Source: Komagataeibacter melomenusus (GTDB taxonomy: Bacteria; Pseudomonadota; Alphaproteobacteria; Acetobacterales; Acetobacteraceae). Taken from it: a DNA stretch of 64,000 nt. A program made the translations under genes and the position numbers. Below the pieces are notes generated by a model that saw nothing but the letters and a program-made list of their open reading frames with translations, was not told where the DNA came from and made no database searches. The stretch lies in NCBI RefSeq assembly GCF_013155395.1, contig NZ_JABJWC010000006.1, positions 1 to 64,000 on the forward strand. The letters run 5' to 3'. Of the stretch, positions 31,155-57,430 are shown piece after piece; within the stretch, counting starts at the first letter, position 1; each line of letters begins with the position of its first letter.

Positions 31155-31228
31155 CCGCCCGGCGCCATCACGCAGCCAGATTCGATCATGGCCATGCGAC
31201 AGCAGGCACCGGGCCACTCGGCGTGGAG

Positions 31229-41923: not shown

Positions 41924-42136
41924 TCAGCCTGCGGTATCGTCCTCGCCATCATGCTGGGGCAGGGTCAGCGGATCGGGCAGGTCGGTGGGGATGGGACCTG
42001 GCCGGGGCGGTTTCGTGGCATCCGGGTCCGGCTGGGCCTCGGGCGGTGAACTGACGCCCGGGGCCGGGTAGCGTGCGCCCCCACCGTCTTTGCCGCCGGA
42101 TTCCCCTTGCGTGTCATGAGGGTCGTCATGTGTCAT
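41924..42136 (-). CDS. Small acidic, proline-rich hypothetical protein
   Basis: A 70-aa protein from the ATG at 42136 (AAGGATCAGG upstream); the frame is open further to 42199. It is highly hydrophilic and likely disordered: MTHDDPHDTQGESGGKDGGG, then a Pro-rich segment and an acidic end (HDGEDDTAG). Not recognised. It resembles short unstructured proteins frequently annotated in acetic acid bacteria. It converges with the CorA-like gene, 23 nt apart. Coding potential is moderate because of strong codon-position GC bias and a good SD. Confidence 0.55.
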   Translation of the reverse strand: MTHDDPHDTQGESGGKDGGGARYPAPGVSSPPEAQPDPDATKPPRPGPIPTDLPDPLTLPQHDGEDDTAG

Positions 42137-42313
42137 GGCCTGATCCTTCCACGCCATCCCAACGCGCGGGCAGGGGGCCGGTTGCGCGCCCCGCGGCACA
42201 ATGACCCGCCTGCCCCAAGGGGGCGCCTTTTCAGGACATGTCCGGGCGCATCGCCTTCGCGGAAAAAAGCGATGCCATCACCCGCCCGCTTTCCATCAGG
42301 CGGCAGAGGGCTA

Positions 42314-43369
42314 TCAGGCACATGCCTTGCTGATGGCGGCGAGAAGATGGTCCACATCCCCCTCCGTTGTCAGGAAGCTGGTCACAAAGCGCACGACCGG
42401 CTGGCCGACCGCATCCTGACCGACGGTGTGGAAGGCAAACCCCTGCGCGCGCAGCGCCTGCACACAGGCGGCGGGCAGGGCGACGAACATGATGTTGGCC
42501 TCGACCTTGTGAAGGATCGTGACCTGTTCCTGCCGCGCCAGGCCATCGTGCAACCGCCTGGCCACGGCATTGGCATTGCGTGCATTGTGCCGCCACAGGT
42601 CATTGGCAAGGTGTGCGACGACCTGCGCCGAGACAAAGCGCTGCTTGGCCATCATATGCCCGGCACGCTTGACGTAGCGCCTGAAGTTTTCCGCCCTGTC
42701 GGGGTTGAAGAACACGACGACCTCCCCGCAGATGGTGCCGTTCTTGCTGGTACCCAGCGACAGCACATCCACTCCTGCCCGCCACGACATATCCGCCGGC
42801 GTGCAGCCCAGCGTCACCAGCGCATTGGCAAAACGGGCACCATCCATGTGCACCGTCATGCCCCGTTCATGCGCAAGGCGGGTCAGCGCCGCGATTTCAT
42901 CCAGCGTATAGACCGTACCCCGTTCCGTAACCTGTGTCAGGCTCAGTACCGCCGGCACCGTGGTATCCGTGTTGGAAGCGGGATAGGCGGCCAGCAGGGC
43001 GGCCAGCGCATCCGCCGTCATCTTGCCTGATTGCGCCGCAACCGGAAGCATTTTCGACCCGTTGGTAAAGAACTCGGGCGCACCGCATTCCGCCCGCAGG
43101 ATATGCGCGCCTTCCGAACAGGCAATCCCGCCATAGGGCGGCGTGGAAGCGGCAATAGGCAGGCAGTTGGCGGCCGTGCCCGAAATGATGGGGAATGCCG
43201 AAACCTTCGTCCCGAAAAAGTCGCCCACCACCTGGTCCAGGCTACGGGTCATGTCATCATGGCCATAGGCCCCGGCAGGCCCCTTGTTGGCCGCGTGCAG
43301 GGCCTCAAGGATCTCGGGGTTGACCCCCATGCGGTTGTCACTGGAAAAATCCATATTGCAGGTCATCAT
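42314..43369 (-). CDS. ltaE: Low-specificity L-threonine aldolase
   Basis: A 351-aa PLP enzyme of fold type I. SSDNRMGVNPEILEAL and AYGHDDMTRSLDQVV match the aldolase start (SDn-x-x-G...YG.D..t). VHMDGARFANALVTL carries the PLP-binding Asp, and DVLSLGTSKNGTICGEVVVF carries the Schiff-base Lys. It cleaves L-threonine/L-allo-threonine to glycine and acetaldehyde. The ATG overlaps the stop of the upstream dicarboxylate/amino acid symporter by 4 nt, so uptake and cleavage of an amino acid may be linked; this is the clearest operon-level clue to the symporter substrate. Confidence 0.9.
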   Translation of the reverse strand: MMTCNMDFSSDNRMGVNPEILEALHAANKGPAGAYGHDDMTRSLDQVVGDFFGTKVSAFPIISGTAANCLPIAASTPPYGGIACSEGAHILRAECGAPEFFTNGSKMLPVAAQSGKMTADALAALLAAYPASNTDTTVPAVLSLTQVTERGTVYTLDEIAALTRLAHERGMTVHMDGARFANALVTLGCTPADMSWRAGVDVLSLGTSKNGTICGEVVVFFNPDRAENFRRYVKRAGHMMAKQRFVSAQVVAHLANDLWRHNARNANAVARRLHDGLARQEQVTILHKVEANIMFVALPAACVQALRAQGFAFHTVGQDAVGQPVVRFVTSFLTTEGDVDHLLAAISKACA

Positions 43370-44625
43370 GCTTCCTCGGGAAACGTGTTGTGCGGCTGGA
43401 CCGGACGGCCAAGGATACCGACCAGAACAGACATTCCGTAGATACTGGCAGCCGTACGGGCCATGTCAAAGAAATGATCCACGCCCAGCAGCAGCAATAT
43501 GCCTTCGGGCGGCAGGCCGAATGTGGGCAGGACATTGCCCAGGATTATGATCGCGCCGCGCGGCACGATCGCCATGCCCTTTGAACTGATGAACAGGAAG
43601 CCGAGGATATAGCATAATGTCAGGAAACCCAGGTGGATGCCGTAGGCATCGGCGATCAGCACGACACTGAAGGACTGGAACATCATCGCCCCGTCCATGT
43701 TGAAGCTGTAGCACAGGGGAAGCAGGAACCCCGATACTTCGCGGTCGATGCCGAATTCTTCCAGGTTTTCGATCAGTTCAGAATAGGCGGCCTCGGAACT
43801 GCCTGTTGAAAAGGCCAGGATCAGCGCCTGGACGACATTGCGCGACAGGCGGAAGACATCCCGCCCCATGCAGAAAAATCCCGCGCAGAACCATGCCAGC
43901 ACCAAAAGCATGATCGCCACGTAGAATTCCATGATGATATAGAAATAGGATATGACAAGCTGGTACCCCGAACGGGCCGCGACCATTGCCGTCGAGGCAA
44001 AGACCACCAGCGGTATTGATTTCATGATTATTTCAGTAACCCGCAACATGATGTTAAAAAATTCGTTGCAGGCCTGCAAGATGACCGTTGTGGTATTTTT
44101 ATAGCGCGAGACCAGCCCCAGCCCGAACAGGAGCGAGAACGCAGTCACCTGCATGATCTCGTTACGCGCCATGGCGTCGATGATGCTTGAGGGGATGATA
44201 TGGGCGACCTGCTCGGCCAGGCTGATGGTCGGAATATCCATTTTCTCATGCGACAGGCCGATCTGCGATGACAGCAACCGCCCGGGATGAAAGAATTCCG
44301 ATGTAACGATACCAATGAGCAGCGATATGAGGGACGCACAGACAATCCATACCGCCAGCGTGCCGACCAGTCGCCCTACCCCCTTGTGCTGCGCCAGGTT
44401 GCCAAGGCCGGAAATAAGCCCCGCCATGACCAGCGGCACGATGATCATTTTTACAACCCGTATGAACAGGCCCAGTATGTATTGTGTGCTGGCAACAGTA
44501 TATGCCTGTAGGGGCCCTCCGCACATATTGCATATTATGCCGAAGACAAGCCCAAGGACGAGCATGAGAACAATGAAAAGGCTTTTCCTGTATCGTCCGA
44601 AAGCAGGGCTTTTACGGTCAGTCAT
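43366..44625 (-). CDS. Dicarboxylate/amino acid:cation symporter (DAACS family)
   Basis: A 419-aa membrane protein from the ATG at 44625 (GGAAG 9 nt upstream); an upstream extension lacks support. It has the GltPh/DctA plan: N-terminal helices (FIVLMLVLGLVFGIICNMCG), MIIVPLVMAGLISGLGNLAQ, the SSEAAYSE version of the HP1 serine-rich loop (GSSEAAYSE), NMDGAMMFQSF (NMDG motif of TM7) and the HP2 segment PPEGILLLLGVDHFFDMART. The HP1 serine motif is reduced compared with glutamate carriers. It transports dicarboxylates or acidic/neutral amino acids with Na+ or H+. Coupled by 4-nt overlap to threonine aldolase. Confidence 0.9.
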   Translation of the reverse strand: MTDRKSPAFGRYRKSLFIVLMLVLGLVFGIICNMCGGPLQAYTVASTQYILGLFIRVVKMIIVPLVMAGLISGLGNLAQHKGVGRLVGTLAVWIVCASLISLLIGIVTSEFFHPGRLLSSQIGLSHEKMDIPTISLAEQVAHIIPSSIIDAMARNEIMQVTAFSLLFGLGLVSRYKNTTTVILQACNEFFNIMLRVTEIIMKSIPLVVFASTAMVAARSGYQLVISYFYIIMEFYVAIMLLVLAWFCAGFFCMGRDVFRLSRNVVQALILAFSTGSSEAAYSELIENLEEFGIDREVSGFLLPLCYSFNMDGAMMFQSFSVVLIADAYGIHLGFLTLCYILGFLFISSKGMAIVPRGAIIILGNVLPTFGLPPEGILLLLGVDHFFDMARTAASIYGMSVLVGILGRPVQPHNTFPEEA

Positions 44626-44950
44626 ACAATAATACTTCCAATGCATTACTTGACAGGAAAATAGGCACGGTCGCACCCTGATGCGGTCAATGAACCTGAC
44701 CCGGCGCGCAACAGGGGCAGACCGCACGCCTTGCCGGGACAGCAGCCCGATTTATGTTTTGTATTGGTAACAAATTGGGTGCCGACACCCCGCACACCGG
44801 TTTTTTTACAGAATACACCCGCTCACCATCCGCCGGTACCGGACTTCAGCACCCGCAAGGCGGCAGGGCCATGTGACACACCCGGTGCCGCCAGATGGCC
44901 TGTGGCAACAGGGCACCGACCCATCTGGCGGCATCATCAGGGCGCGTCGA
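44626..44950. other. 325-bp intergenic region with a 13-bp hairpin
   Basis: No gene is seen. The hairpin TGCCGCCAGATGG (44886-44898) / CCATCTGGCGGCA (44921-44933) with an inner CCTGT/ACAGG stem lies 17 nt after the cytochrome c stop (minus strand) and could end that operon, though no T-run follows. Confidence 0.6.
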
Positions 44951-45367
44951 TCAATGCGTCATATGCGGCACGGGACCGGACATGGCCTTCACGTCGCTGG
45001 CCGAGATCGTATCGGTGTAGGCATTGCCAAAATGGGTCCGGACATAGTTGACCACACTGGCGATCTGCTCGGGCGACAGCGTACCGTTGAACCATGGCAT
45101 CGCGCCATAACCATTGAGGACAATGCCGGCGGGATAGGCGGCCATGGCCAGCTTCGGGTTGCCGGCCAGCGCCGGGATGACCGCAGCCCCCTTGCCACCC
45201 TTGCCATCCGCCATATGGCATGCCTGGCAGACATGCTGGTAGACCTCGGCCCCGGTCTTCATATCGTTCTTGCTGTCCCCGCCCGCACCGGGAGAATCCG
45301 CGTGCGCCATGACCGGCAAGGCCGAAATGCCGATGATGGCGAGCATGTGCAGAATGTAACGGTTCAT
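44951..45367 (-). CDS. Periplasmic class I cytochrome c, partner of amine oxidase (module 1)
   Basis: A 138-aa protein with a signal peptide (about 1-23, ALPVMAHA). The single heme site is CQACH (in HVCQACHMADGKGGKGAA), and MPWFN with its Met is a candidate sixth ligand (GAMPWFNG). The small class I fold resembles the c-type subunits of periplasmic dehydrogenases. Its ATG lies 2 nt after the stop of the upstream amine oxidase gene, with GGAGG as SD inside that gene's 3' end, so the two are tightly coupled. Likely accepts electrons from the flavoenzyme and passes them to the respiratory chain. Nearly the same arrangement recurs at 52348-52770. Confidence 0.93.
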   Translation of the reverse strand: MNRYILHMLAIIGISALPVMAHADSPGAGGDSKNDMKTGAEVYQHVCQACHMADGKGGKGAAVIPALAGNPKLAMAAYPAGIVLNGYGAMPWFNGTLSPEQIASVVNYVRTHFGNAYTDTISASDVKAMSGPVPHMTH

Positions 45368-45369
45368 GC

Positions 45370-46947
45370 TCAGGCCTCCTGCGCCCGTTTGTGAAGTCGT
45401 TTGATCGCATCAAGGGACGAAAGGAGCGCCCCCTCCTGCCAGCAGCCCAGGTAGGAGGCATGTTCACCCGCCAGCACGACCCGGCCGTCGATTTCCGTCA
45501 GGTTGCGGTAATGCTGCTTGCGGGTCTCAGCACTCCAGATGGCGCAGCAGCCCAGCGACCACGGCATGCGGCTCCAGGCCACGGCCACGCCATTGCTGAA
45601 TTCCTTGCGGTATTGCGGGTGCAGCACCGATCCCTGCGCCAGCCCGACCTCGATCCGTTCGGCAGGGGTCATGCCCGCGATATCAAGGCCCGCCATGCTC
45701 TTGGTATAGGCCCCCAGCAGGACGGCGGGACCAGAGGACTGGAAGCCGTAGCTGGGATAGGACACCTGCGAGATTTCCTGGTTGGTGAAGCTGATGCCAC
45801 CATAGATGTCATCATCCTGTTCCCAGAACCGGCGCTTGAACTCCAGCCCCATCTTGATGTGCGATGTATAGGGAACCGCGCCGATGGCGGCCTTCATGCC
45901 CGGGGAGACCTGGATATCGATCTGGCTCAGCACGGAAAGCGGGATGGTGCACACACACCAGTCGGCCGTCTCCTCCGAGACCTTGCCCGTGCCGGTATGC
46001 TCCCACGTCACGCGCACGCCGTGATCATCCTGCGCGATGCGGCTGACGCGCGCATTCATGGTGATGAGGTCGGAAACCTGTTTTGCAAAGCCCTTGCCGA
46101 TCATGTCCACCCCGCCGGTCGGCTGGAACATGGTCGTCTGCATCTCGTAGTTCATGAACGTGGCAAGGGACTGCCACATCGCGGGCCGGAACAGGTCGTG
46201 CCGGTCAAGAAGCTGGGAGGGTACGGGCGCGCCATCCGGGCCACCGCCGGGGCGCTTTTCCCATCCACGCCGTGTCGAGGTATGCACGCTACTCTTGTAG
46301 CGGAAATCCTCATCCAGCAGGCCCCAGCCACGCATCGCTTCCTTGAGCTGCATGCGGTCTTCCTGGGTCAGTTCCTGATCGAGCGTGTGCCCGTCGATCG
46401 ACTTCGCCAGCAGTTCGGCTACGACACCGGTGAAATCACAGGCCACGTCACGATAGCGCATCGGCTTGCCCCCGAACGCATCGGGACTGTGCACGAAGGC
46501 ATTGTAATTGAGCTGGATGAAAGGTTCCAGCGCGACCCCGAACTGCTTGCAGTAATGCAGCAGGGCGCGGTGGTGGTAGGGAATGCGCCATGGGCCGGGG
46601 TTGATGTAGTTTCCGGGCGCGAATTCCACTTTCTGCACCGGCGTGCCCATTTCGACCACGCGATCGCCGCCACGCAGCGTCCAGTTCCGGCCACCTGTCC
46701 GGTTCTGGTATTCAAGGACACGTACGGAATAACCGGCCTTGCGCAGTTCATAGGCGGCCAGCATGCCGGCAAGCCCTGCCCCCAGGACAAGCACTTTCGT
46801 ACCCTTGCGGGCACCGGACAGGACCGGCGGCCCCGTAAAGCGTGAATCAGCTGCATACCCCATGACCGTCATGGCCTGGTAGAGGGCTGCGGTTCCTCCG
46901 GCAAGGCCAAGCGCGGTCAGAAGCTGGCGTCGGGTTGAAGAGACCAT
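45370..46947 (-). CDS. Tat-exported flavin amine oxidase/dehydrogenase (module 1)
   Basis: A 525-aa protein from the ATG at 46947 (GGAG 9 nt upstream). The N-terminus STRRQLLTALGLAGGTAALY is a twin-arginine signal. The FAD Rossmann motif KVLVLGAGLAGMLAAYELRK is followed by LEYQNRTGGRNWTLRGGDRV (RxGGR-type amine oxidase motif). The C-terminal GRVVLAGEHASYLGCWQEGA binds FAD. This places it in the monoamine oxidase/L-amino acid oxidase superfamily, exported folded with FAD. It directly precedes a cytochrome c gene. By analogy with NicA2, which uses cytochrome c rather than O2, it may be a dehydrogenase. Substrate unknown. A paralogue lies at 52770-54359. Confidence 0.9.
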   Translation of the reverse strand: MVSSTRRQLLTALGLAGGTAALYQAMTVMGYAADSRFTGPPVLSGARKGTKVLVLGAGLAGMLAAYELRKAGYSVRVLEYQNRTGGRNWTLRGGDRVVEMGTPVQKVEFAPGNYINPGPWRIPYHHRALLHYCKQFGVALEPFIQLNYNAFVHSPDAFGGKPMRYRDVACDFTGVVAELLAKSIDGHTLDQELTQEDRMQLKEAMRGWGLLDEDFRYKSSVHTSTRRGWEKRPGGGPDGAPVPSQLLDRHDLFRPAMWQSLATFMNYEMQTTMFQPTGGVDMIGKGFAKQVSDLITMNARVSRIAQDDHGVRVTWEHTGTGKVSEETADWCVCTIPLSVLSQIDIQVSPGMKAAIGAVPYTSHIKMGLEFKRRFWEQDDDIYGGISFTNQEISQVSYPSYGFQSSGPAVLLGAYTKSMAGLDIAGMTPAERIEVGLAQGSVLHPQYRKEFSNGVAVAWSRMPWSLGCCAIWSAETRKQHYRNLTEIDGRVVLAGEHASYLGCWQEGALLSSLDAIKRLHKRAQEA

Positions 46948-47221
46948 AAGGCGGGGCTCCCTGTTCAGGAAAAGACGTCCTTTCCCCCGACAATTCGGGG
47001 CAAGGCCGTGCTGGGTCATGTTTTTTTCTATAATCAATAAGGTTCGATGCCGCAATATTACGCATCAGTAATGTTATGATGGACATCACGAGCACACAGC
47101 CCGTTCGGGCAGGATATCCCTTAATGCCCTGCGTATCCTTGGTATTTTATTTCCAGGACAGAAAAAAAGGCACACCGAACGGAATCCGGTGTGCCAGGGC
47201 TGGAAAAATAAACACCAAGTA
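46948..47221. other. Intergenic region between amine oxidase and TonB receptor
   Basis: AT-rich and without a gene. It holds the promoter area of the amine oxidase gene (minus strand) and, at 47162-47195, the terminator of the TonB-receptor gene. Confidence 0.5.
47162..47195 (-). terminator. Intrinsic terminator of the TonB-receptor gene
   Basis: GGCACACCG / CGGTGTGCC pair over 9 bp with a 9-nt loop; on the minus strand the stem is followed by seven T residues. It lies 27 nt after the receptor stop. Confidence 0.9.
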
Positions 47222-49846
47222 TCAGAAAGTCGCGTTTATGCGGCCATAGTAATAACCACCCGTGATCGGAACCTGCGACGAGTTCTGGTCATACAGGTTA
47301 ACGCCGTTGGAATCGTTTTCCGTGGGCAGGCGACGGGGCCGGATGTTGAACACATCGTTCGCGCCGACAGCGATATGCAGGTGGCGGTTGACCCGGTAGC
47401 CGATTTCGATATCGGTCAGCCAGCGCGGCGTGTTCTTGAACTGCGCAAAGCAGGTGTTCGAGGCATAGAGCGCACCGCCGCTCGAGCAGCTACCGCTGGT
47501 GGTGTAGTCGTAATAGGTCAGCATGTCCGTCGTCTCGCCGTAGCGGGTCTGGCGAACATTGAAGTCCCAGCTACCAATTGTATAGAACGCGTTCAGGATG
47601 ATCTTGCTGCGCGGATAGGCCGTGGTCAGGTAAGCCGTATTCTGCGCGTTGAGCAGGGCATTACCCGTCGAAGACGTGCCATTGTGGTGCAGGCGGGTAC
47701 GGTTGAGGTCCAGCGCCATGCTCAGCGTCAGGTTGCCATACCGGTGCAGGCGGAACATGTAGTCTGCCTTGATATCAAGGCCCTGCGTACGGGTGCTGGC
47801 ACCGTTGGTCAGGTAATAGGCGGAAACGGTGGACACATCCAGGCCGTTGGCCGGCAGGGTGTATCCCATCTCCTCGATGGCGTTGACCGCGGCCTGACCC
47901 TTCGTGGTGCCACCACCCACGATACGGTCACGCAGGTTAATCTGATAGACATCCGCTTCGACATGGAAGCCGTCAACCGGTTCAAGCACGATACCACCGC
48001 TCTCGCTGGTGGAACGCTCGGGCTTGAGGTTCGAGGCACCAAGGCTGCGCGCGGCCTCGGATGACACGGGCAGCATGCCCGAAGCCGTCGTCGGGCCGAC
48101 GCTCATGGCGCTGTAATGTTCTTCGGCCAGGGTTGGCGCACGGAAACCGGTGCTGATGGTACCACGCAGGGCCACCCGGCGGTTGAAGTCATAACGGGTC
48201 GAGATCTTGCCGTTTTCCGTGTCGCCCACGTCGGTGTAGTGTTCAAAGCGACCGGCGAAGTCCACGCTCCATTTCTTGGTGAAATGGAAGTCGCCATCAA
48301 GGTACCATGCCCAGATGTCACGGCTCCAGGAACCGGCACTCTGCGGCCCCAGCCCGGCATAGCCCTGCGTGCCACCCGCCTGGTAGGACGGCGGGTTGCC
48401 GGCCCAGATGTCATAGGTTTCCAGGCGATGCTCGGCGCCGAAGGCCAGCGTCATCGGAACCTTGTGGCCGATATCGAAATGACGGCGGAAATCGAGGTTG
48501 TTCGTCCACTGCGCCATGCGATAGGTTTCGGAGCGTGTCTTCGTCGGCGACCAGCCGCACCCGTCCGTGGATGCATAGGCCGCGGGCCCACTGTTGCAGG
48601 TCGAGGCCAGCATGCCGGTATTGGCGGTGTTCTTGTCGCCAATCTTGTCTTCATCCGCGCCATACACGGTGCTGAGGTCCCAGTTGAACCCCATGAAGTT
48701 GTCACCCTTCAGGCCCAGCATGGCGGAGTAGTCGTTCTCCTCCATGGTTTCGATGGGCGTGAAGCCATTGGGGTACATCGACGGCGCAATGGTCGGGATA
48801 CGGTAGTTTTCATACGCTTCCGCATGGCGGTGCGCATAGGTGATCAGGCCATAGAAGTTGATGCCGGGCGTCAACTGCTTGCCCCAGTCGATCGACAGGT
48901 TCTCGCGCGTTTCCTCGGGCGTGCTCATCAGCACGTTCGTGCTGGGATCAATGTATTTCGCGCCCGCCACCAGGCCATTATAGTAACCGGTGGTGTGCGC
49001 GCCCTCGGGCCATGTGCCCAGCAGGCGGTGGTCGCGCGCGCCCTTGGGCACGTCATGGTCGGTGTGGTACACCTGCCCCGAAAGGTGCAGGTACCCATCC
49101 TGCCCCAGCTTCATGCCGCCATCGGCATTGACCTGGTACTGCCACCCGCCACCGTTATAGGCGTTGGCGCCGGTCTGGTAGCTGGCGTCAAAGCCATGGT
49201 CCTGCTTCTTGGTGATGATGTTCACCACGCCGGCAATGGCATCGGAGCCATACATGGCCGCGGCCCCGTCTTCCAGTACCTCGATATGGTCAATGGCGTT
49301 GGCGGGGATCATGTTCAGGTCAACCGGCGTCGCGCCGAAGGCCGGGCCCGGGTTCTGCGTCATGTTGCCGGTGGAGTGGCGGCGCTTGCCATCGACCAGG
49401 ACCAGGACCTCGTTCGGGTTGAGGCCACGCATGCGGATAGCCGATGTCAGGGCCGCCGTGTCACTGCCCTTCGCGCCGACGTTGATCGAGGCATAGGTGC
49501 GGGTTATGGCATCGGCCAAGTTCATCTGGCCGGAACGGCGCAGGGTCGCGGCCGTTACAACGGTAACGGGACTGGTGCTCTGGCGGGCGCGCCGGTTGGA
49601 AGAATGCGTGCCCGTTACAATGATGGCCTCACTCGTATCGGCGGGCGCGGCAGTACGGGCAGCGGCTTTCAGGGTATTCGCCTTCTGCGCGGTCGTGCCC
49701 GATGCCTTGGATGGCGTTGAACGGACAATGCGATGCCTGGATGAATCAACGTCCGTATCAGCTGCCACGGCAGCCTTCATAACGGCGTCCACTCCGGCGG
49801 GGACTGTAAAAACGGTCGCCGCCACAAGCCAACGTCTGAGAATCAT
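47222..49846 (-). CDS. TonB-dependent outer-membrane receptor (amine-oxidation locus)
   Basis: An 874-aa protein from the ATG at 49846 (AAAGG 9 nt upstream); ATG 49867 lacks an SD. Signal peptide MILRRWLVAATVFTVPAGVD, an N-terminal extension, then the plug (about 75-210): SEAIIVTGTHSSNRRARQST, LVLVDGKRRHSTGNMT, IDHIEVLEDGAAAMYGSDAI (TonB box-distal plug motif). The barrel ends in YYYGRINATF. The NPGPAFGATPVDLNMIPANA segment marks the group of receptors often found next to catabolic genes. It sits between two amine oxidase modules, so it probably imports their substrate or a precursor into the periplasm. Has its own terminator and promoter. Confidence 0.9.
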   Translation of the reverse strand: MILRRWLVAATVFTVPAGVDAVMKAAVAADTDVDSSRHRIVRSTPSKASGTTAQKANTLKAAARTAAPADTSEAIIVTGTHSSNRRARQSTSPVTVVTAATLRRSGQMNLADAITRTYASINVGAKGSDTAALTSAIRMRGLNPNEVLVLVDGKRRHSTGNMTQNPGPAFGATPVDLNMIPANAIDHIEVLEDGAAAMYGSDAIAGVVNIITKKQDHGFDASYQTGANAYNGGGWQYQVNADGGMKLGQDGYLHLSGQVYHTDHDVPKGARDHRLLGTWPEGAHTTGYYNGLVAGAKYIDPSTNVLMSTPEETRENLSIDWGKQLTPGINFYGLITYAHRHAEAYENYRIPTIAPSMYPNGFTPIETMEENDYSAMLGLKGDNFMGFNWDLSTVYGADEDKIGDKNTANTGMLASTCNSGPAAYASTDGCGWSPTKTRSETYRMAQWTNNLDFRRHFDIGHKVPMTLAFGAEHRLETYDIWAGNPPSYQAGGTQGYAGLGPQSAGSWSRDIWAWYLDGDFHFTKKWSVDFAGRFEHYTDVGDTENGKISTRYDFNRRVALRGTISTGFRAPTLAEEHYSAMSVGPTTASGMLPVSSEAARSLGASNLKPERSTSESGGIVLEPVDGFHVEADVYQINLRDRIVGGGTTKGQAAVNAIEEMGYTLPANGLDVSTVSAYYLTNGASTRTQGLDIKADYMFRLHRYGNLTLSMALDLNRTRLHHNGTSSTGNALLNAQNTAYLTTAYPRSKIILNAFYTIGSWDFNVRQTRYGETTDMLTYYDYTTSGSCSSGGALYASNTCFAQFKNTPRWLTDIEIGYRVNRHLHIAVGANDVFNIRPRRLPTENDSNGVNLYDQNSSQVPITGGYYYGRINATF

Positions 49847-50797
49847 GAGGTTACCTTTCTGATTCATCTAAAGGTTACAACAAAGAAACATCTACAATAA
49901 ATTTTTCATTAAAAATAAAAAATTGGAACCACTTAATATATTTTCGCCGTTTTGTTGTTTTCTTGCAACATTTTAGGTTATGACAAAGAAAAAACTTTCA
50001 ACCCCGCCCCGGAGCCTGCCTGCCTATGGAAGCTTCAGGCGGGAAACCACCCGAAAAAATATCCATATGAATTAAAAGGATTTTTTGTCACTGATTACAC
50101 ATGCACGTCCTGCCGGACCCGTCGCCCCCACGGAATTGATATCGAAACAGGCATACAGGCGCCTTGCGCCATACGATCTGACAATATCAATGAAACCCCG
50201 CCGGAAAAGCATTTTTTATATGGTATTCCATGAATAAAACTATGTTCTGGCAGATCGATGCAAATGACTCCTGACATGGTACCGCCTACCCGGTTCACAG
50301 CACACCATGAACGGATTTTGCATTACAAATATATCATGAACAAGATCATTACATTTGTAATTTATTATATATTCTGAAGATAGAAGTAATTATGTTTCCA
50401 AACCACTTGTCCAGCCATGCCCCCCCAGAAATGACCGTTTGCGATTGGCACAGGCGGGAACGCGCAAAACAACAACCTGCCTGACGCTGCATGCACGACA
50501 GGCACCATGGCTGCGCGCGGCATGACCAACGGGATGACCGGCCACAGGCCAGCAGGTGGAAACAGGCCACTTTCTGCCTGTCGGCGTCAGGAAAACAAGT
50601 TTGCCATAACGGTCAGCCTGGCTGCCGAACCCAGATCATGAAGCACACAGCCCCCGCGCACGCCCCCTGCCTGCAATCACGACACAGGCACTGGATATGA
50701 CAATCGCCCCGGCAGTCCTGCCGGGGCGACGCTCTGGTTTTCTTCCATCCACACCACGATGCGGATAATGATTCAGGTGACTTCAGGCGCCGAGCAA
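49847..50797. other. 951-bp intergenic region, AT-rich, no recognised gene
   Basis: The 5' part (49870-49950) is very AT-rich and probably contains the TonB-receptor promoter (minus strand). A 93-aa frame from a TTG near 49952 (containing CTSCRTRRPHG) has no SD and no recognisable family; it might be a relic. The hairpin at 50704-50729 follows the aminotransferase gene. 50290-50400 is also AT-rich. Confidence 0.45.
50704..50729. terminator. Strong hairpin downstream of the exported aminotransferase gene
   Basis: Perfect 11-bp stem, TCGCCCCGGCA / TGCCGGGGCGA, loop GTCC. It is 69 nt beyond the aminotransferase stop (minus strand). T-runs are short on both sides. Confidence 0.6.
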
Positions 50798-52000
50798 TCA
50801 GACCATGATCTGGTCAAGGGCGTCACAGAAAGCCTTCATGTCTTCCGCCGAGCCAACCGTCACGCGCGACATGGTGGGCCAGATCGGCCAGTTGCGGCCG
50901 ATATCGATCTTGCGGGCGGCAAAGGCATCCCGCATGGTCTGCGCCGGCTGCTTCCAGTCAACCATGAACATGTTGGCCTCGCTGGGCAGGTAGGTCAGGC
51001 CACGCTTTTTCAGGTGGGCGAAGGTCGCCTCCCTTACGGCGATCATCTGGCTGCGGCGTTCGGCAATCGCGGCGGTCTGGGTCAGGCTTGCCGTGCCGGT
51101 GGCCAGCGCCACGATCGACAGCGTGCCCGACTGGTTGAGGCCATCGTAGCGCATCATCTTCTCGTGCAGGTCAGGCCGCGCCATGCTCAGGCCCAGGCGC
51201 AGTCCTGCCATGGCGAACAGCTTGGAGAAGGTGCGCAGAACCACGACATCCTTGTTCTCCGCCACCAGCTTCGCCGCACTCGGCGCACCGGAGAAGTGGA
51301 TGTAGGCTTCATCGACCAGGACGATGGACCCCTCGGGCTTGTGGGCCACGAGCCACTTGATGTCCGCCAGCGGGGTGACCGTGCCGGTTGGGTTGTTGGG
51401 CGAGCAGACATAGTAAATGCCGGCATTCGGGTCGGCCTTCAGCATGGCCCGCACATCGGTCACATATTTGTTTTCCGCCCGCAGCGGCACCTTGGTGACC
51501 TTCACGCCCAGCCATGACGCGGTGCGCCACGAGGCCTCGAATGTCGGGTCGGCCGTGACAAGGCCGCGCGTGGGCGAACAGAAGGTCACGACGGTGCGGC
51601 TCAGCGGGTCACTCGATCCCGGCCAGGGCAGGATATGCGTCTCGGGCACCTTCTCGACCTGCGAGACGGTCTGGATCAGCTGCTCACGCAGGTTCGAGGG
51701 TTCATAACGGTTGCCCAGGGGCACCACCGCCGCCCCGGCCTGTGCCGCGGTGGGGAAGGGGCCGGTCCAGCATTCGTTGCTGCCGATGCGGACCATGCCG
51801 GACTTGTTCTGTGCTTCCTCGATCGGGGCCTTGGGGCTGGCGGCCGCGCTCTTGGCCGCAGCCGTGCCGCTGAGCAGCGGGGACGCGGCCATCGCCGCCG
51901 AGCCAAGCCCGAGCAGGGCTGAAATGCGACCGAACTGGCGGCGGGAATATCCCCGTGCCAGAAGGTCTTCCTTCGCTTCTTTTGAAAGTAGGACACCCAT
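50798..52000 (-). CDS. Tat-exported PLP-dependent aminotransferase (HisC-like fold)
   Basis: A 400-aa protein from the ATG at 52000. The N-terminal region has a strong twin-arginine motif (YSRRQFGRISALLGLGSAAM), then ASPLLSG, so the enzyme is exported folded with its cofactor. The body is a class I/II aminotransferase similar to histidinol-phosphate aminotransferase: YYVCSPNNPTGTVTPLADIK, VLVDEAYIHFS (PLP Asp/Tyr) and VLRTFSKLFAMAGLRLGLSM (Schiff-base Lys). A normal HisC is cytosolic, so this is not a histidine-synthesis enzyme by context. It lies between the two amine oxidase modules and probably handles the same amino compounds in the periplasm; donor and acceptor unknown. Confidence 0.88.
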   Translation of the reverse strand: MGVLLSKEAKEDLLARGYSRRQFGRISALLGLGSAAMAASPLLSGTAAAKSAAASPKAPIEEAQNKSGMVRIGSNECWTGPFPTAAQAGAAVVPLGNRYEPSNLREQLIQTVSQVEKVPETHILPWPGSSDPLSRTVVTFCSPTRGLVTADPTFEASWRTASWLGVKVTKVPLRAENKYVTDVRAMLKADPNAGIYYVCSPNNPTGTVTPLADIKWLVAHKPEGSIVLVDEAYIHFSGAPSAAKLVAENKDVVVLRTFSKLFAMAGLRLGLSMARPDLHEKMMRYDGLNQSGTLSIVALATGTASLTQTAAIAERRSQMIAVREATFAHLKKRGLTYLPSEANMFMVDWKQPAQTMRDAFAARKIDIGRNWPIWPTMSRVTVGSAEDMKAFCDALDQIMV

Positions 52001-52347
52001 GGACTTGTCACCTTGATGTTTTGCAGGAATGCAATCGAACCCTGGCGGAGGAAATACAGACACCCATAATCCGCCACTGGTTTCCTTATCGTAATGAAAC
52101 CGGCAGCATTGCGGCGTATGGCGCCTGACCGGGGAAGGGTCATGTCAGCACACGGGCCCGCAGGAAAATCCGATGCGTATATTTCCCGCAAAGAGCAATA
52201 ACATTCCCTTTACCAGAAACTTTCCTGACTTGATCATAAAACAGATGCAATGGCAATCATTGCATCGTATAAAAATTCTCCCTTGTTATTTTATAATAAT
52301 TATACAATAGAAATGCGCGGGCCCTGTTCCCCTGCCCGCCACATCAG
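52001..52347. other. 347-bp intergenic region between the aminotransferase and cytochrome c genes
   Basis: No gene is recognised. A short GCGGGC/GCCCGC hairpin (52317-52339) lies just after the module 2 cytochrome c stop on the minus strand; 52210-52310 is AT-rich and holds possible -10 boxes for the aminotransferase. Confidence 0.45.
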
Positions 52348-52770
52348 TCAGTGATCATCGACTTTCAGCGGCCCCGCCATGCTGCCCACCACCTGGGGCG
52401 TCAGGGCATCCGTGTAGTGATTGCCAAAATGCGTCCTGACATAGTTGACGACATCCGCGACCTGCGCGGGTGACAGCACGCCATTGAACCACGGCATGGC
52501 CCCCTTGCCGTTCATGACCACGGTTGCGGGATAGGCCGCAACCGCCAGATGCGGGTCTGACGCCAGCGCCGGGATGGTTCCCGCCCCCGTGCCCCCCTTG
52601 CCATCCGCCATATGGCAGGCCTGGCAGATATGTTCATAGACCTGTTGGCCCGTTTTCAGTTGCGCGGGGTCCGCCGCATCCGCGGCAAAACAGAATGACG
52701 GTGCGGCCCCGACAGACAGGGCCACAGACGCAGCCACGGCCCATGCCCTGATATCTTGCATGCCCATCAT
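52348..52770 (-). CDS. Periplasmic class I cytochrome c, partner of amine oxidase (module 2)
   Basis: A 140-aa protein; the ATG at 52770 overlaps the amine oxidase stop by one nucleotide (TGATG; AGGAAG SD), and the next ATG three nt later is equally good. Signal peptide ends about FCFAADAA. Single heme motif CQACH (HICQACHMADGKGGTGAGTI). GAMPWFNGVLSPAQVADVVN and the following YVRTHFGN are almost identical to module 1. Clear paralogue of 44951-45367. Likely electron acceptor for the flavoenzyme encoded directly upstream. Confidence 0.93.
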   Translation of the reverse strand: MMGMQDIRAWAVAASVALSVGAAPSFCFAADAADPAQLKTGQQVYEHICQACHMADGKGGTGAGTIPALASDPHLAVAAYPATVVMNGKGAMPWFNGVLSPAQVADVVNYVRTHFGNHYTDALTPQVVGSMAGPLKVDDH

Positions 52771-54359
52771 CAAGCTTCCTGTGCCCGTTTGTGCAACCGT
52801 TTCACCGCATCCATGGAGGACAGGAGCGCACCTTCCTGCCATCCCCCCAGATAGGAGGCATGGTCCCCCGCCAGGACGATCCGGCCATCAAGCGCGACCA
52901 GGTCCTGGTAATAGGCCTTCCTGTCCGCCTCGCTCCAGCGCGCGCGACAGCCCAGCATCCAGGGCACGCGACTCCAGGCGACGGAGGTGCCGTTCATGAA
53001 TTCCCTGCGGTATTGCGGGTGGATGACCTCACCCTGCTTCAGGGCGGTTTCCAAACGCTGTTCAGGTGTCATCGCCGCGAAGTCGAGCCCCGCCAGATTG
53101 AGGGGAAAGCCCCCCAGCAGCACGGCGGGGCCGCTGGAATGCATCCGGTCGTTGGGATAGGAAATCAGGGCGATTTCCTGGCTGGTGAAACTGATCCCGC
53201 CATAAATCGCTTCGTCTTCCTCCCAGAAGCGGCGGCGGAATTCCATGCCGATCTTCGCATGGCTCGAATAGGGCACGGCCCTGATGCCCGCCTGCATCTT
53301 GGGCGAGACCTGCACAGGGATCTGCGCCAGCACCGTCAGCGGCATGGCGCATACGCACCAGTCGGCCCTTGTCTGCCCCGCCGCCCCGCTGACACGGTCG
53401 GCATGGCTGACCGTAACGCCCGAATCGTCCTGGGCGATGGCCGTCACCTTGCGGTTGAAGGTGATCAGCCTGCCCACATGCCGGGCAAAGGCCTTGCCGA
53501 TCATGTCCATGCCGCCAACAGGCTGGAACATGGTGGGCTGCATCTCGTATGTCATGAAGAACTTCATGGTGTTCCACACGCACGGATCGAGCACATCGCT
53601 AAACGGCAGCAGGTCCGAGGCAATGGGCGCGCCATCGGGGCCGCCACCGGGCGGGCGCTCATATCCCCGTCGGGTCGAGACATGCAGCCCCTTGCGGTAG
53701 GAATAGGATGCATCGAGCATGCCCCATTCGCGCAGCGCCACCAGCAGGCGTTCGCGGTCCTCCTTCGTCAGGACCTGGTCGAGGTTGTTCTGGTTGACGG
53801 ACTTGCCCAGCAGTTCGGAAATATTGCCGATGAAATCCGAGGCCCCATCGCGGTACCGCTGCGGCCTGCCGCCAAAGGCATTCGTACTGTGCACATATGC
53901 GTTGTTGTTGAACTGGATGAACGGTTCAAGCTGCACGCCGAACTGCTTGCAATAATGCAGGATGGCCCGGTGATGGTGCGGGATGCGCCACGGGCCGGGA
54001 TTGAAATAGTTCCCCGCCGCAAACCCGACCTTCTGGGTCGCGCCCCCCAGTTCGGTATAGGTATCGCCCCCGCGCAGGGTCCAGTTCCGGCCACCCGCGC
54101 GATCCTGGTATTCAAGCAACTGGACCCTGTAGCCCGCCTTGTCCAGTTCATAGGCCGCCGCAAGGCCGGCAAGCCCCGCGCCCAGCACCACGACACTGTC
54201 GCCCCTGCGGGCCCTGCCCAGTTCCGGCGTGCCCCTGAACTGCGATTCTTCCGCATGGCCCAGGGCGGTCATGGCCTGGTACATCGCAGCGGTTCCGGCG
54301 GTCAGGCCGATCCTGAGCAGCAGGTCCCGCCGCGTCGGGCCGGAAGCGTTGGCGGGCAT
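52770..54359 (-). CDS. Tat-exported flavin amine oxidase/dehydrogenase (module 2)
   Basis: A 529-aa paralogue of 45370-46947. Twin-arginine signal GPTRRDLLLRIGLTAGTAAM, FAD motif SVVVLGAGLAGLAAAYELDK, LEYQDRAGGRNWTLRGGDTY, a shared core block LHYCKQFGVQLEPFIQFNNN, and the C-terminal GRIVLAGDHASYLGGWQEGA. The final 11 residues (KRLHKRAQEA with preceding V) match module 1. Exported with FAD; probably oxidises an amine and passes electrons to the overlapping cytochrome c. Both oxidases keep the general MAO fold, but active-site preference is unknown. Duplicated modules suggest either dosage or divergence to two related substrates. Confidence 0.9.
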   Translation of the reverse strand: MPANASGPTRRDLLLRIGLTAGTAAMYQAMTALGHAEESQFRGTPELGRARRGDSVVVLGAGLAGLAAAYELDKAGYRVQLLEYQDRAGGRNWTLRGGDTYTELGGATQKVGFAAGNYFNPGPWRIPHHHRAILHYCKQFGVQLEPFIQFNNNAYVHSTNAFGGRPQRYRDGASDFIGNISELLGKSVNQNNLDQVLTKEDRERLLVALREWGMLDASYSYRKGLHVSTRRGYERPPGGGPDGAPIASDLLPFSDVLDPCVWNTMKFFMTYEMQPTMFQPVGGMDMIGKAFARHVGRLITFNRKVTAIAQDDSGVTVSHADRVSGAAGQTRADWCVCAMPLTVLAQIPVQVSPKMQAGIRAVPYSSHAKIGMEFRRRFWEEDEAIYGGISFTSQEIALISYPNDRMHSSGPAVLLGGFPLNLAGLDFAAMTPEQRLETALKQGEVIHPQYRREFMNGTSVAWSRVPWMLGCRARWSEADRKAYYQDLVALDGRIVLAGDHASYLGGWQEGALLSSMDAVKRLHKRAQEA

Positions 54360-54519
54360 GCCTCAGGATTCCCTGATCATGATGATATCAAAACGATATA
54401 GATGCAGCATGCCTGGTCCCTTTCCCTACGGAATCTTTCCGCCGCCAGCTTAATTGTAAATCCGCGGCATACAACTCATTATGTTTTCGTAACGGAAAAT
54501 TCAGCGCCCGCAGGCGTTT

Positions 54520-55179
54520 TCATACGGCAAGCGTGTTCAGGATGGCATCAGCAACCTGCTGGAGGTGCCTTTGCATCAGCATCGACGCCCGCTCCGCATC
54601 CTTGTGCCGCATCGCATCCAGGATCTGGCAGTGTTCCTGCCGCCCGGGTTCGAGCCGTTGCGGGATCTGGTCAAAACCGTACAGCCGGGTACGTTCACGC
54701 AGTTCGTTGACATTACGCGCCAGCAGGCGGTTGCCGCTGGCTTCGGCAATCGTGGCATGGAACATGTTATCGACATCCCAGTGCGCCTCGGCGGTGATGT
54801 GTTCCATCCGCAGGAGCGCGACTTCGCGCGCGTGCAGGATGTCCAGCGTGGCAGGGCTGATCCGGTGTGTCGCCAGCTTGACGCCCTCGCCTTCCAGCAG
54901 GCGGCGCAGCACCAGGATCTCCAGCACATCCTCGGTGCGGATGGCGTTCACCATGATGGTGCGCCCGCTCTGCCGCAGCAGCCCTTCCCCCACCAGCCGG
55001 CGCAGCGCATCCCGGACCGGCGTGCGGGACAGCCCCAGCCGCAGCGCCACTTCCCGTTCGATGACGACGGTATCGGCTTCAAGCTGGCCTTCGAGTATCC
55101 ACCGCCGGACAGTTTCAAATGCGTCCTCGGACAGGCTCCCCCTGGGGGCCGAAGACCGCTGCTTGTCAGATAACATCAT
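54520..55179 (-). CDS. GntR-family regulator, FCD (FadR) subfamily
   Basis: A 219-aa protein from the ATG at 55179 (start uncertain; the frame is open to 55419 and no SD is clear). The winged helix (about 20-75) contains REVALRLGLSRTPVRDALRR, followed by LVGEGLLRQSG. The FCD ligand-binding domain (about 80-215) has EILVLRRLLEGEGVKLATHR, WDVDNMFHATIAEASGNRLL (metal-ligand D..F/H pattern) and EHCQILDAMRHKDAERASML. It is divergent from the RraA-like operon and follows the amine oxidase module 2 on the same strand, so it likely controls this catabolic region. The ligand is probably a small carboxylic acid; FCD repressors release DNA on binding it. Confidence 0.87.
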   Translation of the reverse strand: MMLSDKQRSSAPRGSLSEDAFETVRRWILEGQLEADTVVIEREVALRLGLSRTPVRDALRRLVGEGLLRQSGRTIMVNAIRTEDVLEILVLRRLLEGEGVKLATHRISPATLDILHAREVALLRMEHITAEAHWDVDNMFHATIAEASGNRLLARNVNELRERTRLYGFDQIPQRLEPGRQEHCQILDAMRHKDAERASMLMQRHLQQVADAILNTLAV

Positions 55180-55631
55180 ATGCGCCGCCGCATCACACGG
55201 CCTTTCAGACAGGATAGAAGCCACCATCGCACGCCTGTGCACGGGATGGGCGGAAAGCAATTTTCCGTTCCGGAACGCGCGAACCTGCCCCACCAGTGAT
55301 GGGCAATGTCCTTGAGTTACTGCTGAAATTTTCCCGGTCACCGCAGTATGTCCCGACCATATCCCCACCCGGATCGGACATGCAATAATTTTCAGAACCC
55401 AATGGTATACTTCTTGCATTCCAGCGCACGGTCGTTATAGATAAGAAACGATCAACCCGATGCCATGCGCGCCGGCGGGTCGTCCGGTTTTCCTTCGCAA
55501 GGCATCGTGCCGCACCGTCCCATGGCAACCGGGCCACCAGCCTTCCCGCACGGACCCGTCCGGTCCCGGAATGCCTTCCGTGCCGGGAACAGGACGCCCC
55601 ATCATCGGATTTTCATATTGGATGTGCCTCC
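55180..55631. other. Divergent regulatory region, 452 bp
   Basis: No gene is seen. It contains TGGTATACTT (55403-55412; GTATAC core) resembling FCD-GntR operators and a weak promoter TTGCAT (55414-55419), 16 nt, TATAGA pointing to the RraA-like gene. The gap is long enough for separate promoters in both directions. Confidence 0.5.
55403..55441 (+). promoter_or_regulatory. Promoter and GntR operator candidate of the catabolic operon
   Basis: -35 TTGCAT (55414-55419) and -10 TATAGA (55436-55441), spaced 16 nt. TGGTATACTT lies directly upstream; its palindromic core GTATAC matches the TNGTATACNA style of FCD-GntR sites. Both assignments are tentative. Confidence 0.35.
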
Positions 55632-56414
55632 ATGTCACTTGAAAAAGCGGGCTTCAGTTTACCAGGGCTGGGTAGGATCGCGTCAGAAACCTGCTGCCCC
55701 ATCCCGGAGGAACTGAAAGCCAGGCTGCTTTCCGTCGCGGTGCCCACGCTGTCCGCCATCATGTTCAAGATGGGGCTGCACACGCGCTTCTTTTCCGACC
55801 TGCACCCCCTCCAGCCTGCGTGCAGGCGGTTCTGCGGCCCGGCATGGACGGTGCGCGCCATGCCCGTGCGCGAAGACATCCGCGAGGGAATCGCCCAGCG
55901 CCAGGTCCCCAGCCTGAACCGGATGGCGCTTGACGCCGCACCAGCGGACAGCGTGGTGGTGGTTGGCAGCGGCGGCCATCCGGAAGTCTCGTTCATGGGC
56001 GACATCATGGCCACGTCACTGATGGTACGCGGCATTGCCGGGGTCATCCTCGATACCAGCGTGTCCGATGTCTCGATCGTGGGCAAAATGGAACTGCCGG
56101 TCGTATGCGCGGGCCGGAACGTGCGCTCCTCCTTCTCGGCGCTGATGGTCATTGGCTGCGATGAACCCGTTGGCGTGCAGGGGGTGGCGGTCTTTCCCGG
56201 TGACATCATCGTCGGTGACGAGGACGGCGCGGTATGCGTGCCCCGCCACCTTGCCGATGAAATTGCCGATGCCGCGATCGAACAGGAAGCGCTGGAAGCC
56301 TTCATCATCAAAAAAGTCGCCACGGGCATGCCGATCGATATCGCCTACCCGCCCAGCCCGCAGATCCTGGCCGAATACGAACAGTGGCGCGCCACGCAGG
56401 AAAAAACGACATGA
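55632..56414 (+). CDS. RraA-family protein (aldolase/lyase-like)
   Basis: A 260-aa protein of the RraA/HMG-CHA-aldolase-like family. The conserved block GVAVFPGDIIVGDEDGAVCV is the RraA hallmark (GxxVxPGDxxxxDxDGvvvVP), and VRGIAGVILDTSVSDVSIVG is the usual G-x-R-D region with D retained but R changed to T-S-V, so metal and substrate binding may differ from class II pyruvate aldolases. Family members are 4-hydroxy-4-methyl-2-oxoglutarate aldolases, oxaloacetate decarboxylases or RNase E inhibitors. In this operon a catabolic lyase role is likeliest. It starts the operon; the next gene overlaps its stop by 4 nt. Confidence 0.82.
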   Translation: MSLEKAGFSLPGLGRIASETCCPIPEELKARLLSVAVPTLSAIMFKMGLHTRFFSDLHPLQPACRRFCGPAWTVRAMPVREDIREGIAQRQVPSLNRMALDAAPADSVVVVGSGGHPEVSFMGDIMATSLMVRGIAGVILDTSVSDVSIVGKMELPVVCAGRNVRSSFSALMVIGCDEPVGVQGVAVFPGDIIVGDEDGAVCVPRHLADEIADAAIEQEALEAFIIKKVATGMPIDIAYPPSPQILAEYEQWRATQEKTT

Positions 56415-57430
56415 CCATGCCGGGTGGCGCCGTGGTGGTCACGGGCGATACGGGCTTCGTCGGCCTGAATGTTGTCGAGGCCCTGCTGGGCAGGGGACGT
56501 TGCGTCATCGGGATTTCGGACCGGGCGCTGCCGGCTTCGCTCACGCGCCATTTCCCCATGTCCGATGGCCGCTACATCCACCACCAGGGTGACATTACCG
56601 ACCCGGCCTTCGTGCGTGCGTGCTTTGGCGGCCGGGACATCGCCGCCGTCATCCATCTTGCGGCCGTTACATCCGGCGCGGCACAGGAATGCCAGCGCGC
56701 GGCGGCAACGGTTGCCGTCAACCTGGGTGGCACGGTCAATGCCATCAATGCGGCCGCGGAAGCGGGCGTGCGGAATTTCCTTTTCGCCAGTTCCGTCGCC
56801 GTCTACGGCAATGACTTCCCCGATGGCACCTGGCTGAAGGAAAGCACCCCGCGCGCGCCAGCCAGCCTGTACGCCATCAGCAAATACAGCGGCGAACAGA
56901 TCGCGGCGCGACTGGCCGCCCAATGGGGCATGACGCTGAAGATCGGCCGGCTGGGACGGGTTTTCGGGCCATACGAACATGAAACCGGCGTGCGGGATAC
57001 GCTCAGCCAGATCTTTGTCGCAACCCGGGCCGCCCGGACGGGTCAGCCGGTGCATTTCGCACGGCCGTGCATCAAGAACTGGCAGTACGCACGCGATGCG
57101 GCAGCCGCCCTGATCGCGCTGTCCGACATCGCGCAGCCCGTGCGCCAGACCTACAACATGGGCGCGCCAACCGCCTGGTCACTACTGGACTGGTGCCGCC
57201 TGCTGCGCACGGCCTATCCCGATTTCCGTTTTGCTGTCGGGCCGCAACCCGCGCCACCCGGCGCGCTGTCCATCGACCTGTGGGGCGACCACGATGGCGG
57301 CCTGCTGTCAGGCGCGCTGTTCCGCCAGGACGTGATGGATGCGCCCTGCTGCGACATGCAGGCCGCCTTCAGGGATTACATGCAGTTCCTGCACACATCG
57401 GACACAGAAGGAAAATGCCATGACGTCTGA
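56411..57430 (+). CDS. NAD-dependent epimerase/dehydratase (extended SDR)
   Basis: A 339-aa protein starting at the ATG overlapping the RraA-like stop (AGGA 8 nt upstream). Rossmann motif VTGDTGFVGLNVVEALLGRG, then AAVIHLAAVTSG, and the catalytic SSVAVYGNDF / YAISKYSGEQ (Y-x3-K). RLGRVFGPYEHETGVRD and NMGAPTAWSL follow. Typical extended SDR of the UDP-sugar epimerase type, though many act on other hydroxyacid or sugar substrates. Its 3' end overlaps the next gene by 11 nt. In this operon it probably oxidises or isomerises an intermediate; substrate unknown. Confidence 0.85.
   Translation: MTMPGGAVVVTGDTGFVGLNVVEALLGRGRCVIGISDRALPASLTRHFPMSDGRYIHHQGDITDPAFVRACFGGRDIAAVIHLAAVTSGAAQECQRAAATVAVNLGGTVNAINAAAEAGVRNFLFASSVAVYGNDFPDGTWLKESTPRAPASLYAISKYSGEQIAARLAAQWGMTLKIGRLGRVFGPYEHETGVRDTLSQIFVATRAARTGQPVHFARPCIKNWQYARDAAAALIALSDIAQPVRQTYNMGAPTAWSLLDWCRLLRTAYPDFRFAVGPQPAPPGALSIDLWGDHDGGLLSGALFRQDVMDAPCCDMQAAFRDYMQFLHTSDTEGKCHDV

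Follow-up and report, generated by a model that had tools for sequence, protein, structure and literature searches.

The locus considered here lies in a stretch of 64,000 nucleotides (nt) of Komagataeibacter melomenusus DNA (contig NZ_JABJWC010000006.1, positions 1 to 64,000; hereafter the window), and is built around two modules, A and B, in each of which a gene for a flavoenzyme with a twin-arginine translocation (Tat) motif, oxA or oxB, is followed by a gene for a one-heme cytochrome c, cytA or cytB (Table 1). A TonB-dependent receptor and an aminotransferase dependent on pyridoxal phosphate (PLP) are encoded between the modules. An earlier reading of the sequence (the original prediction) had described these six genes, and their positions, Tat signals, CQACH motifs and families were all found again, with every gene on the minus strand. 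So too was the tight spacing within each pair, which amounts to a gap of 2 nt between oxA and cytA and an overlap of 1 nt between cytB and the oxB stop codon, the start of cytB having been moved to a likely ATG at 52770 from that of the longer open reading frame (ORF) at 52842. The oxA ORF runs from a TTG codon (45370-47055), and a likely ATG at 46947 gives the N-terminal sequence MVSSTRRQLLTALG.

Table 1. Genes of the two-module island and its flanks, with coordinates in the window; L201 is a stretch of a second genome of the genus (G164).
Feature	Position	Strand	Identifying features
oxB, Tat-signal flavoenzyme of the Rhodococcus opacus L-amino acid oxidase (RoLAAO) type by sequence and predicted fold, module B	52770..54359	-	motif TRRDLL; PF01593, E 9.1e-51
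cytB, one-heme cytochrome c, module B	52348..52770	-	CQACH; PF13442, E 1.6e-13
PLP aminotransferase with Tat signal, NF006580 subfamily	50798..52063	-	motif SRRQFG; PF00155
TonB-dependent receptor	47222..49867	-	PF00593 and PF07715
oxA, Tat-signal flavoenzyme, RoLAAO-type on the same basis, module A	45370..46947	-	PF01593, E 2.5e-51
cytA, one-heme cytochrome c, module A	44951..45367	-	CQACH; PF13442, E 8.5e-15
GntR/FCD regulator, upstream of oxB	54520..55419	-	PF07729 and PF00392; collinear in L201
SDF-family (GltP/DctA-like) symporter, accessory	43366..44727	-	PF00375, E 5.8e-83; collinear in L201
PLP beta-eliminating lyase / threonine-aldolase-like enzyme, accessory	42314..43369	-	PF01212; collinear in L201

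Conservation of the pairing was examined in 104 stretches picked by the oxidase alone, namely the window, 23 stretches from genomes of the family Acetobacteraceae and, from at least 587 confirmed relatives, the 80 best, which together hold 111 oxidase ORFs, or 106 once identical ones are removed. A CXXCH motif on the same strand and 0-300 nt downstream was found for 94 of the 106 distinct oxidases, whereas the opposite strand yielded one in 106 over the same distance downstream and one in 106 upstream, and the same strand 300-600 nt upstream yielded 13 in 106. Eleven of the 12 oxidases without a downstream cytochrome have one directly upstream, which at two loci (L126 and L148) is the cytochrome that follows a tandem oxidase copy, and the twelfth is cut by a contig end; overall, a cytochrome stands directly beside 105 of the 106 copies. 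Such a pairing is more frequent than chance would give. Within the family, an oxidase match at E 1e-60 was obtained in 37 of 150 genomes, 21 of which hold copies of at least 52% identity (the module-bearing genomes) and 16 only copies of 37-43% identity; for these distant relatives, an adjacent same-strand cytochrome was present at one of nine loci scanned for ORFs of at least 90 residues. Distances among the oxidases and among their cytochromes were correlated (r 0.75, n = 92 pairs; best of 1000 permutations 0.12), in a comparison of the 94 oxidases that are followed by a cytochrome, less two whose cytochrome is of another type. At L120 and L162, one sphingomonad oxidase each has a downstream cytochrome of another type, with a GPNL motif, which suggests an exchange of partners.

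The closest structure in the PDB to both flavoenzymes is that of RoLAAO (2jae; E 1.4e-83 for oxB and 3.1e-79 for oxA), the top monoamine oxidase among the matches listed for oxB having an E of 7.6e-13, and a nicotine enzyme was named in none of the best 60 of 101 PDB hits. An AlphaFold2 model of oxB (30-row alignment; mean predicted local distance difference test score 85) also matched 2jae best, with a TMt of 0.94 and a root mean square deviation of 2.0, the monoamine oxidases among the matches listed scoring 0.6-0.7. The fold, the flavin adenine dinucleotide (FAD) domain and the position of an arginine that we take to be substrate-binding are common to RoLAAO, oxA and oxB, and judged by sequence and predicted fold the two enzymes are best regarded as RoLAAO-type and not as generic amine oxidases. 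R125, K369 and W507 are invariant in 104 of the 104 oxidase copies that were aligned, ORFs of fewer than 450 or at least 700 residues having been excluded, and the first of these residues aligns with what is presumably the carboxylate-binding arginine of RoLAAO. Since the nearest solved relatives are L-amino acid oxidases and this arginine is invariant, an L-amino acid is the most likely substrate, and the branches may differ in this respect; the amine substrate and the amine dehydrogenase label of the original prediction are therefore replaced by an L-amino acid dehydrogenase or oxidase. The conserved lysine was considered as a gauge of O2 reactivity and, being invariant in all aligned copies, proved uninformative. 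RoLAAO itself has been characterised as an O2-using oxidase and, to our knowledge, has no partner cytochrome. A Tat-type motif, scored as the motif only, is present in 102 of the 106 distinct oxidases, and the printed N-termini of the remaining four include one truncated ORF and two with KR instead of RR.

Taken together, family membership, export motifs, conservation and correlated divergence of the pair, and the receptor association and collinear island described below provide sequence-based support for the view that each oxidase-cytochrome pair is probably a periplasmic L-amino acid:cytochrome c oxidoreductase, that is, a dehydrogenase. In such a mechanism, the Tat-exported RoLAAO-type flavoenzyme would oxidise an L-amino acid to the imino acid in the periplasm, and the imino acid would then yield a keto acid and ammonium, aided at many sister loci by a RidA protein with a signal-like N-terminus. 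The reduced FAD would be re-oxidised mainly by the cytochrome c encoded alongside and not by O2, and the TonB receptor would probably import into the periplasm a ligand tied to amino-acid metabolism. We infer the L-amino acid specificity of the window copies, the receptor ligand and the electron route past the cytochrome, as well as the role of the cytochrome as electron acceptor, which is strongly suggested though still unproven.

The lao-cccA-ridA cluster (GDI2456-GDI2454) of Gluconacetobacter diazotrophicus PAL5, like the window modules, has a gene for a Tat-signal RoLAAO-related oxidase followed directly by one for a cytochrome c. This cluster, with its same gene order, is reported to be needed for the conversion of tryptophan to auxin, two Tn5 insertions in lao (GDI2456) having resulted in no auxin and 95% less indoles; ccm mutants of the same organism, cited in that report, produced 5% auxin, and the authors suggested, as a proposal only, that the cytochrome assists Lao (PMC5053998). 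Six published lao, cccA and ridA primers match stretch L042 (genome G123) with two to three mismatches each and give the published product sizes of 152, 220 and 214 bases, so that L042 can be taken as the counterpart of the published cluster; a divergently oriented TonB receptor gene lies some 0.2 kb from its lao gene. Conservation of the cluster in Caulobacter and Xanthomonas was also reported, in a text whose available part does not contain the word TonB (PMC5053998). A third oxidase copy in the K. melomenusus genome, on contig C76, likewise has the order lao-cytochrome-RidA on one strand, whereas the window modules have no adjacent ridA, lie in other branches of the oxidase tree and share their locus with genes for a TonB receptor, an aminotransferase, a symporter and an aldolase-like enzyme.

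In NicA2 and Pnao with the cytochrome CycN, and in their kin, a flavin amine oxidoreductase with a Tat signal is likewise encoded next to an exported cytochrome c, and the electron transfer proposed here is the same as theirs, NicA2 passing its electrons to CycN and not to O2. Both features recur in the window, where each flavoenzyme carries a Tat motif and each adjacent cytochrome has an N-terminus judged by eye to be signal-like; the difference is that the nearest solved kin of oxA and oxB are L-amino acid oxidases. Such flavin amine dehydrogenase-cytochrome pairs were described as a class between 2022 and 2025 (PMC9396064, PMC12224317), and a Tat signal together with an adjacent cytochrome c gene was reported to be a good predictor of cytochrome use among the flavin amine oxidoreductases tested (PMC12224317). 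The original prediction's view that no such system had been described is not supported, lao-cccA-ridA having been described genetically in 2016 (PMC5053998). The enzyme-cytochrome pair is already known, and the present analysis adds to it a link with a receptor, the RidA with a signal-like N-terminus, the island of two modules and the question of the electron outlet.

A number of points weigh against L-amino acid dehydrogenation with a dedicated cytochrome. The position presumed to align with the second carboxylate-binding residue of RoLAAO, a tyrosine, is variable, residue 418 being Y in 51, F in 52 and N in one of the 104 aligned copies (Y in oxA, F in oxB). The correlation between oxidase and cytochrome distances is inflated by shared ancestry, and cytB is closest to the cytochromes of the oxA group and not to those of the nearest relatives of oxB. 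No RidA gene is adjacent to either window module, nor is one present on the window's contig stretch. The lao phenotype is that of the cluster, since cccA and ridA transcripts were also lowered in the insertion mutant examined (PMC5053998). The enzymes on which the Tat-cytochrome predictor was tested were drawn from NicA2 hits, the term L-amino acid being absent from the available text (PMC12224317). Searches of an open-access library yielded no report of a biochemical test of this oxidase lineage, nor of the receptor link, and genetics in a relative (PMC5053998) is the one body of work that bears, by analogy, on L-amino acid oxidation by the lao type. The idea of a periplasmic flavoenzyme passing electrons to its own cytochrome c, and that of a link to a TonB receptor, have gained support that is genomic and evolutionary and not biochemical.

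The fate of the electrons was considered in the draft genome of K. melomenusus (G000; 146 contigs, completeness given as 100). A search for the COX1 family found only CyoB, accompanied by the rest of CyoABCD, and a COX1-like protein of divergent sequence encoded beside heme o synthase (L073:1328-2809, contig C88). If copper B, heme a3 and low-spin heme ligand roles are assigned to the aligned positions, as we assume, two of the three copper B histidine positions of this protein are not histidine (HPEV to GPEI, HH to HD), nor is the heme a3 ligand position, and the low-spin heme positions keep their histidines. This search of the draft genome thus yielded no intact cytochrome c oxidase. The genome does encode a cytochrome c1 and three matches of the cytochrome c peroxidase (CCP)/MauG type, one of which, a protein with Haem_bd and CCP_MauG domains (L196:4982-6394, contig C83), lies some 3 kb away from the gene for cytochrome c1 and is a candidate outlet for cytochrome c electrons. 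The 21 module-bearing genomes divide into 12 with a CtaD hit of at least 620 bits and nine whose hits are all weak or CyoB-like; this threshold is our own, placed in a gap in the scores, and cbb3 oxidases would escape it. In Acetobacter genomes, a deranged COX1-like gene has been reported to persist in a cluster with ctaB; how cytochrome c is re-oxidised in acetic acid bacteria is an acknowledged puzzle, and a peroxidase has been put forward as an answer (PMC10715153).

The peroxidase-type matches, and the failure to find an intact cytochrome c oxidase, would also suit a conventional periplasmic L-amino acid oxidase that reduces O2 to H2O2, the cytochrome c serving only to feed a peroxide-removing peroxidase. 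RoLAAO was deposited as an oxidase, and the invariant Lys369 fits either chemistry. Such an enzyme nevertheless seems unlikely given the cytochrome beside 105 of 106 oxidases (although at two of the 11 loci with an upstream cytochrome this gene may be that of a tandem copy) and the correlated divergence, while the auxin levels of the ccm mutants cited in PMC5053998 suggest that c-type cytochromes are needed for the product. In addition, a scan of representatives of 19 of the 101 neighbour clusters revealed neither a peroxidase nor a catalase.

The association of a TonB receptor with the modules was upheld by gene order. Of the 95 oxidases for which 3.5 kb or more of upstream sequence was available, 27 have a receptor gene within 1.2 kb upstream, antisense overlaps being excluded, as against 0-8% in the other bins (0/93, 7/91, 2/88 and 3/85 farther upstream; 3/89, 3/89, 3/86, 0/81 and 1/78 downstream). 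The receptor is divergent in eight of ten Acetobacteraceae cases and in five Caulobacter cases, and on the same strand in sphingomonads and in the window; oxA is 90-91% identical to the copies at L041 and L109, both of which have a divergent receptor. Of the 150 family genomes, 25 encode close kin of the window receptor (E no greater than 1e-200), comprising 14 of the 21 module-bearing genomes versus 11 of the 129 others (Fisher p 1.7e-8, kinship being ignored). The 930 nt upstream of the window receptor (49868-50797) have a G+C content of 48%, versus a window average of 64%, and form a long candidate promoter region.

The same association could feasibly reflect iron acquisition, in which the enzymes would make Fe(III)-chelating alpha-keto acids and the receptor would import the complex. 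Alpha-keto acid products of the amino acid deaminases of Proteus chelate ferric iron. The receptor plug resembles, at a general and low level, those of siderophore, colicin I and B12 receptors, and a Fur box is predicted upstream of a gene set comprising nuoA-N and lao in G. diazotrophicus (PMC9368920). However, 68 of the 95 oxidases have no receptor within 1.2 kb upstream, the best Fur-like 19-mers of the island match 11-12 of 19 positions versus 13 elsewhere in the window, and the window receptor falls below the cut-off of each of the 21 specific NCBIfam receptor models that it matched, all of which renders iron acquisition quite unlikely.

RidA-family genes are the other recurrent neighbours, lying on the same strand within 2.5 kb of 43 of the 106 oxidases (25 downstream, 18 upstream). 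A signal-like hydrophobic stretch was discerned by eye in ten of 11 printed RidA N-termini, and by a crude rule in 47 of 67 RidA ORFs. A family scan of 19 representatives of the 101 neighbour clusters, to which the C76 RidA was added, turned up two-component regulators, efflux proteins, an ABC ATPase, an M20 peptidase and a DsbA-like protein as well as a further TonB receptor, and left six without a Pfam match; in this sample, RidA and the TonB receptors were the only consistent partners recognised.

The original prediction also placed the aminotransferase in a four-part pathway, in which an amine compound would be imported and oxidised and the products transaminated outside the cytoplasm. Its location between the modules, its Tat signal and the purifying selection under which a second species has retained it at the same place agree with such a scheme, which is however very improbable. 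The gene is present in 14 of the 150 family genomes, and in three of the 21 module-bearing genomes versus 11 of the 129 others (Fisher p 0.42), so that its status as a conserved, co-occurring part of the module was rejected at the family level. It is, moreover, separated from its neighbours by 284 and 930 nt. The aminotransferase was not found beside the other oxidase loci examined; a greedy ORF scan revealed homologues of 38-39% identity just downstream of the oxidase at L107 and L127. The window enzyme scores 508 bits against NF006580 (cut-off 444), and so belongs to this subfamily of PRK09105/PtaA-type aminotransferases, yet fails the PtaA model NF051461 with 320.5 bits (cut-off 500). PtaA, which it resembles, is a siderophore-modifying enzyme, a further point against the four-part pathway. 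A second aminotransferase copy in the same genome (G000:C22:35856-37031) is 87% identical to that of the window.

The origin of the two modules was examined with an oxidase tree built by a quick method, with Shimodaira-Hasegawa-like approximate likelihood ratio support only and a midpoint root. oxA groups with copies from Gluconacetobacter azotocaptans, G123 and Acetobacter nitrogenifigens (support 100), whereas oxB stands beside those of G. liquefaciens, G. asukensis and G. tumulicola, albeit with a support of only 89, within a branch of 27 rows (99) that holds Caulobacter and Sphingomonas and leaves out oxA. The C76 copy sits among those of other acetic acid bacteria, grouped there with the copy of Komagataeibacter sp. 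FXV3 (99), and three oxidase lineages, as judged from this tree, meet in one genome. The modules are indeed paralogous, with 63% identity between oxA and oxB and 72% between cytA and cytB over the segment compared, but local tandem duplication, which the original prediction's description of duplicated pairs might imply, was rejected on the placement of oxA and oxB in different lineages of this tree.

Within the genus, 16 of 19 genomes have an oxidase copy at E 1e-150, and a copy of the oxA type was recognised only in the present genome and in G164, where it is 94% identical; three others (G150, G151 and G161) each have a second copy, which may belong to any of the branches. The island is collinear in one of the 18 other genomes, stretch L201 of G164 having the order GntR-oxB-cytB-aminotransferase-receptor-oxA-cytA-symporter-aldolase, and an assembly artefact is therefore unlikely. 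Ratios of nonsynonymous to synonymous substitution versus L201 were 0.047 for oxA, 0.049 for cytA, 0.075 for oxB, 0.151 for cytB, 0.125 for the aminotransferase, 0.078 for the receptor (778 codons), 0.136 for the symporter, 0.185 for the aldolase-like enzyme and 0.261 for the GntR/FCD regulator, values that point to purifying selection on all nine genes compared. The frame of the receptor counterpart in G164 is interrupted near its 3' end (L201:14500-14820), by either a real break or a sequencing error. A megablast search of window positions 42000-57000 against plasmids, as a possible origin, returned one 65-base hit. The GntR/FCD regulator is a candidate regulator of the island, and the symporter and aldolase-like genes, which overlap by 4 nt, lie on the same strand downstream of cytA. 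Elsewhere in the window, two PAS-GGDEF-EAL proteins are encoded as neighbours (27060-28784 and 28896-31217).

A wider and more tentative proposal, rather unlikely as a whole, is that of receptor-fed periplasmic respiration of L-amino acids, in which receptor, Tat dehydrogenase, cytochrome c and exported RidA would form a complete extracytoplasmic deamination route, assembled repeatedly in Acetobacteraceae, Caulobacteraceae and Sphingomonadales, with electrons leaving via a cytochrome c peroxidase, or via some other route from c to quinone, where an intact cytochrome c oxidase is lacking. If correct, this would give the puzzling c-type cytochromes of acetic acid bacteria a job. The dehydrogenase interpretation itself ties a widespread gene pair to testable chemistry, namely L-amino acid dehydrogenation with a dedicated cytochrome, and offers a concrete electron source for cytochrome c where no intact cytochrome c oxidase was found, a setting in which its re-oxidation is the recognised puzzle (PMC10715153). 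If true, it would also explain the scant auxin of ccm mutants in an auxin-making plant endophyte, and would extend to L-amino acid oxidases the revision by which such oxidases are regarded as dehydrogenases.

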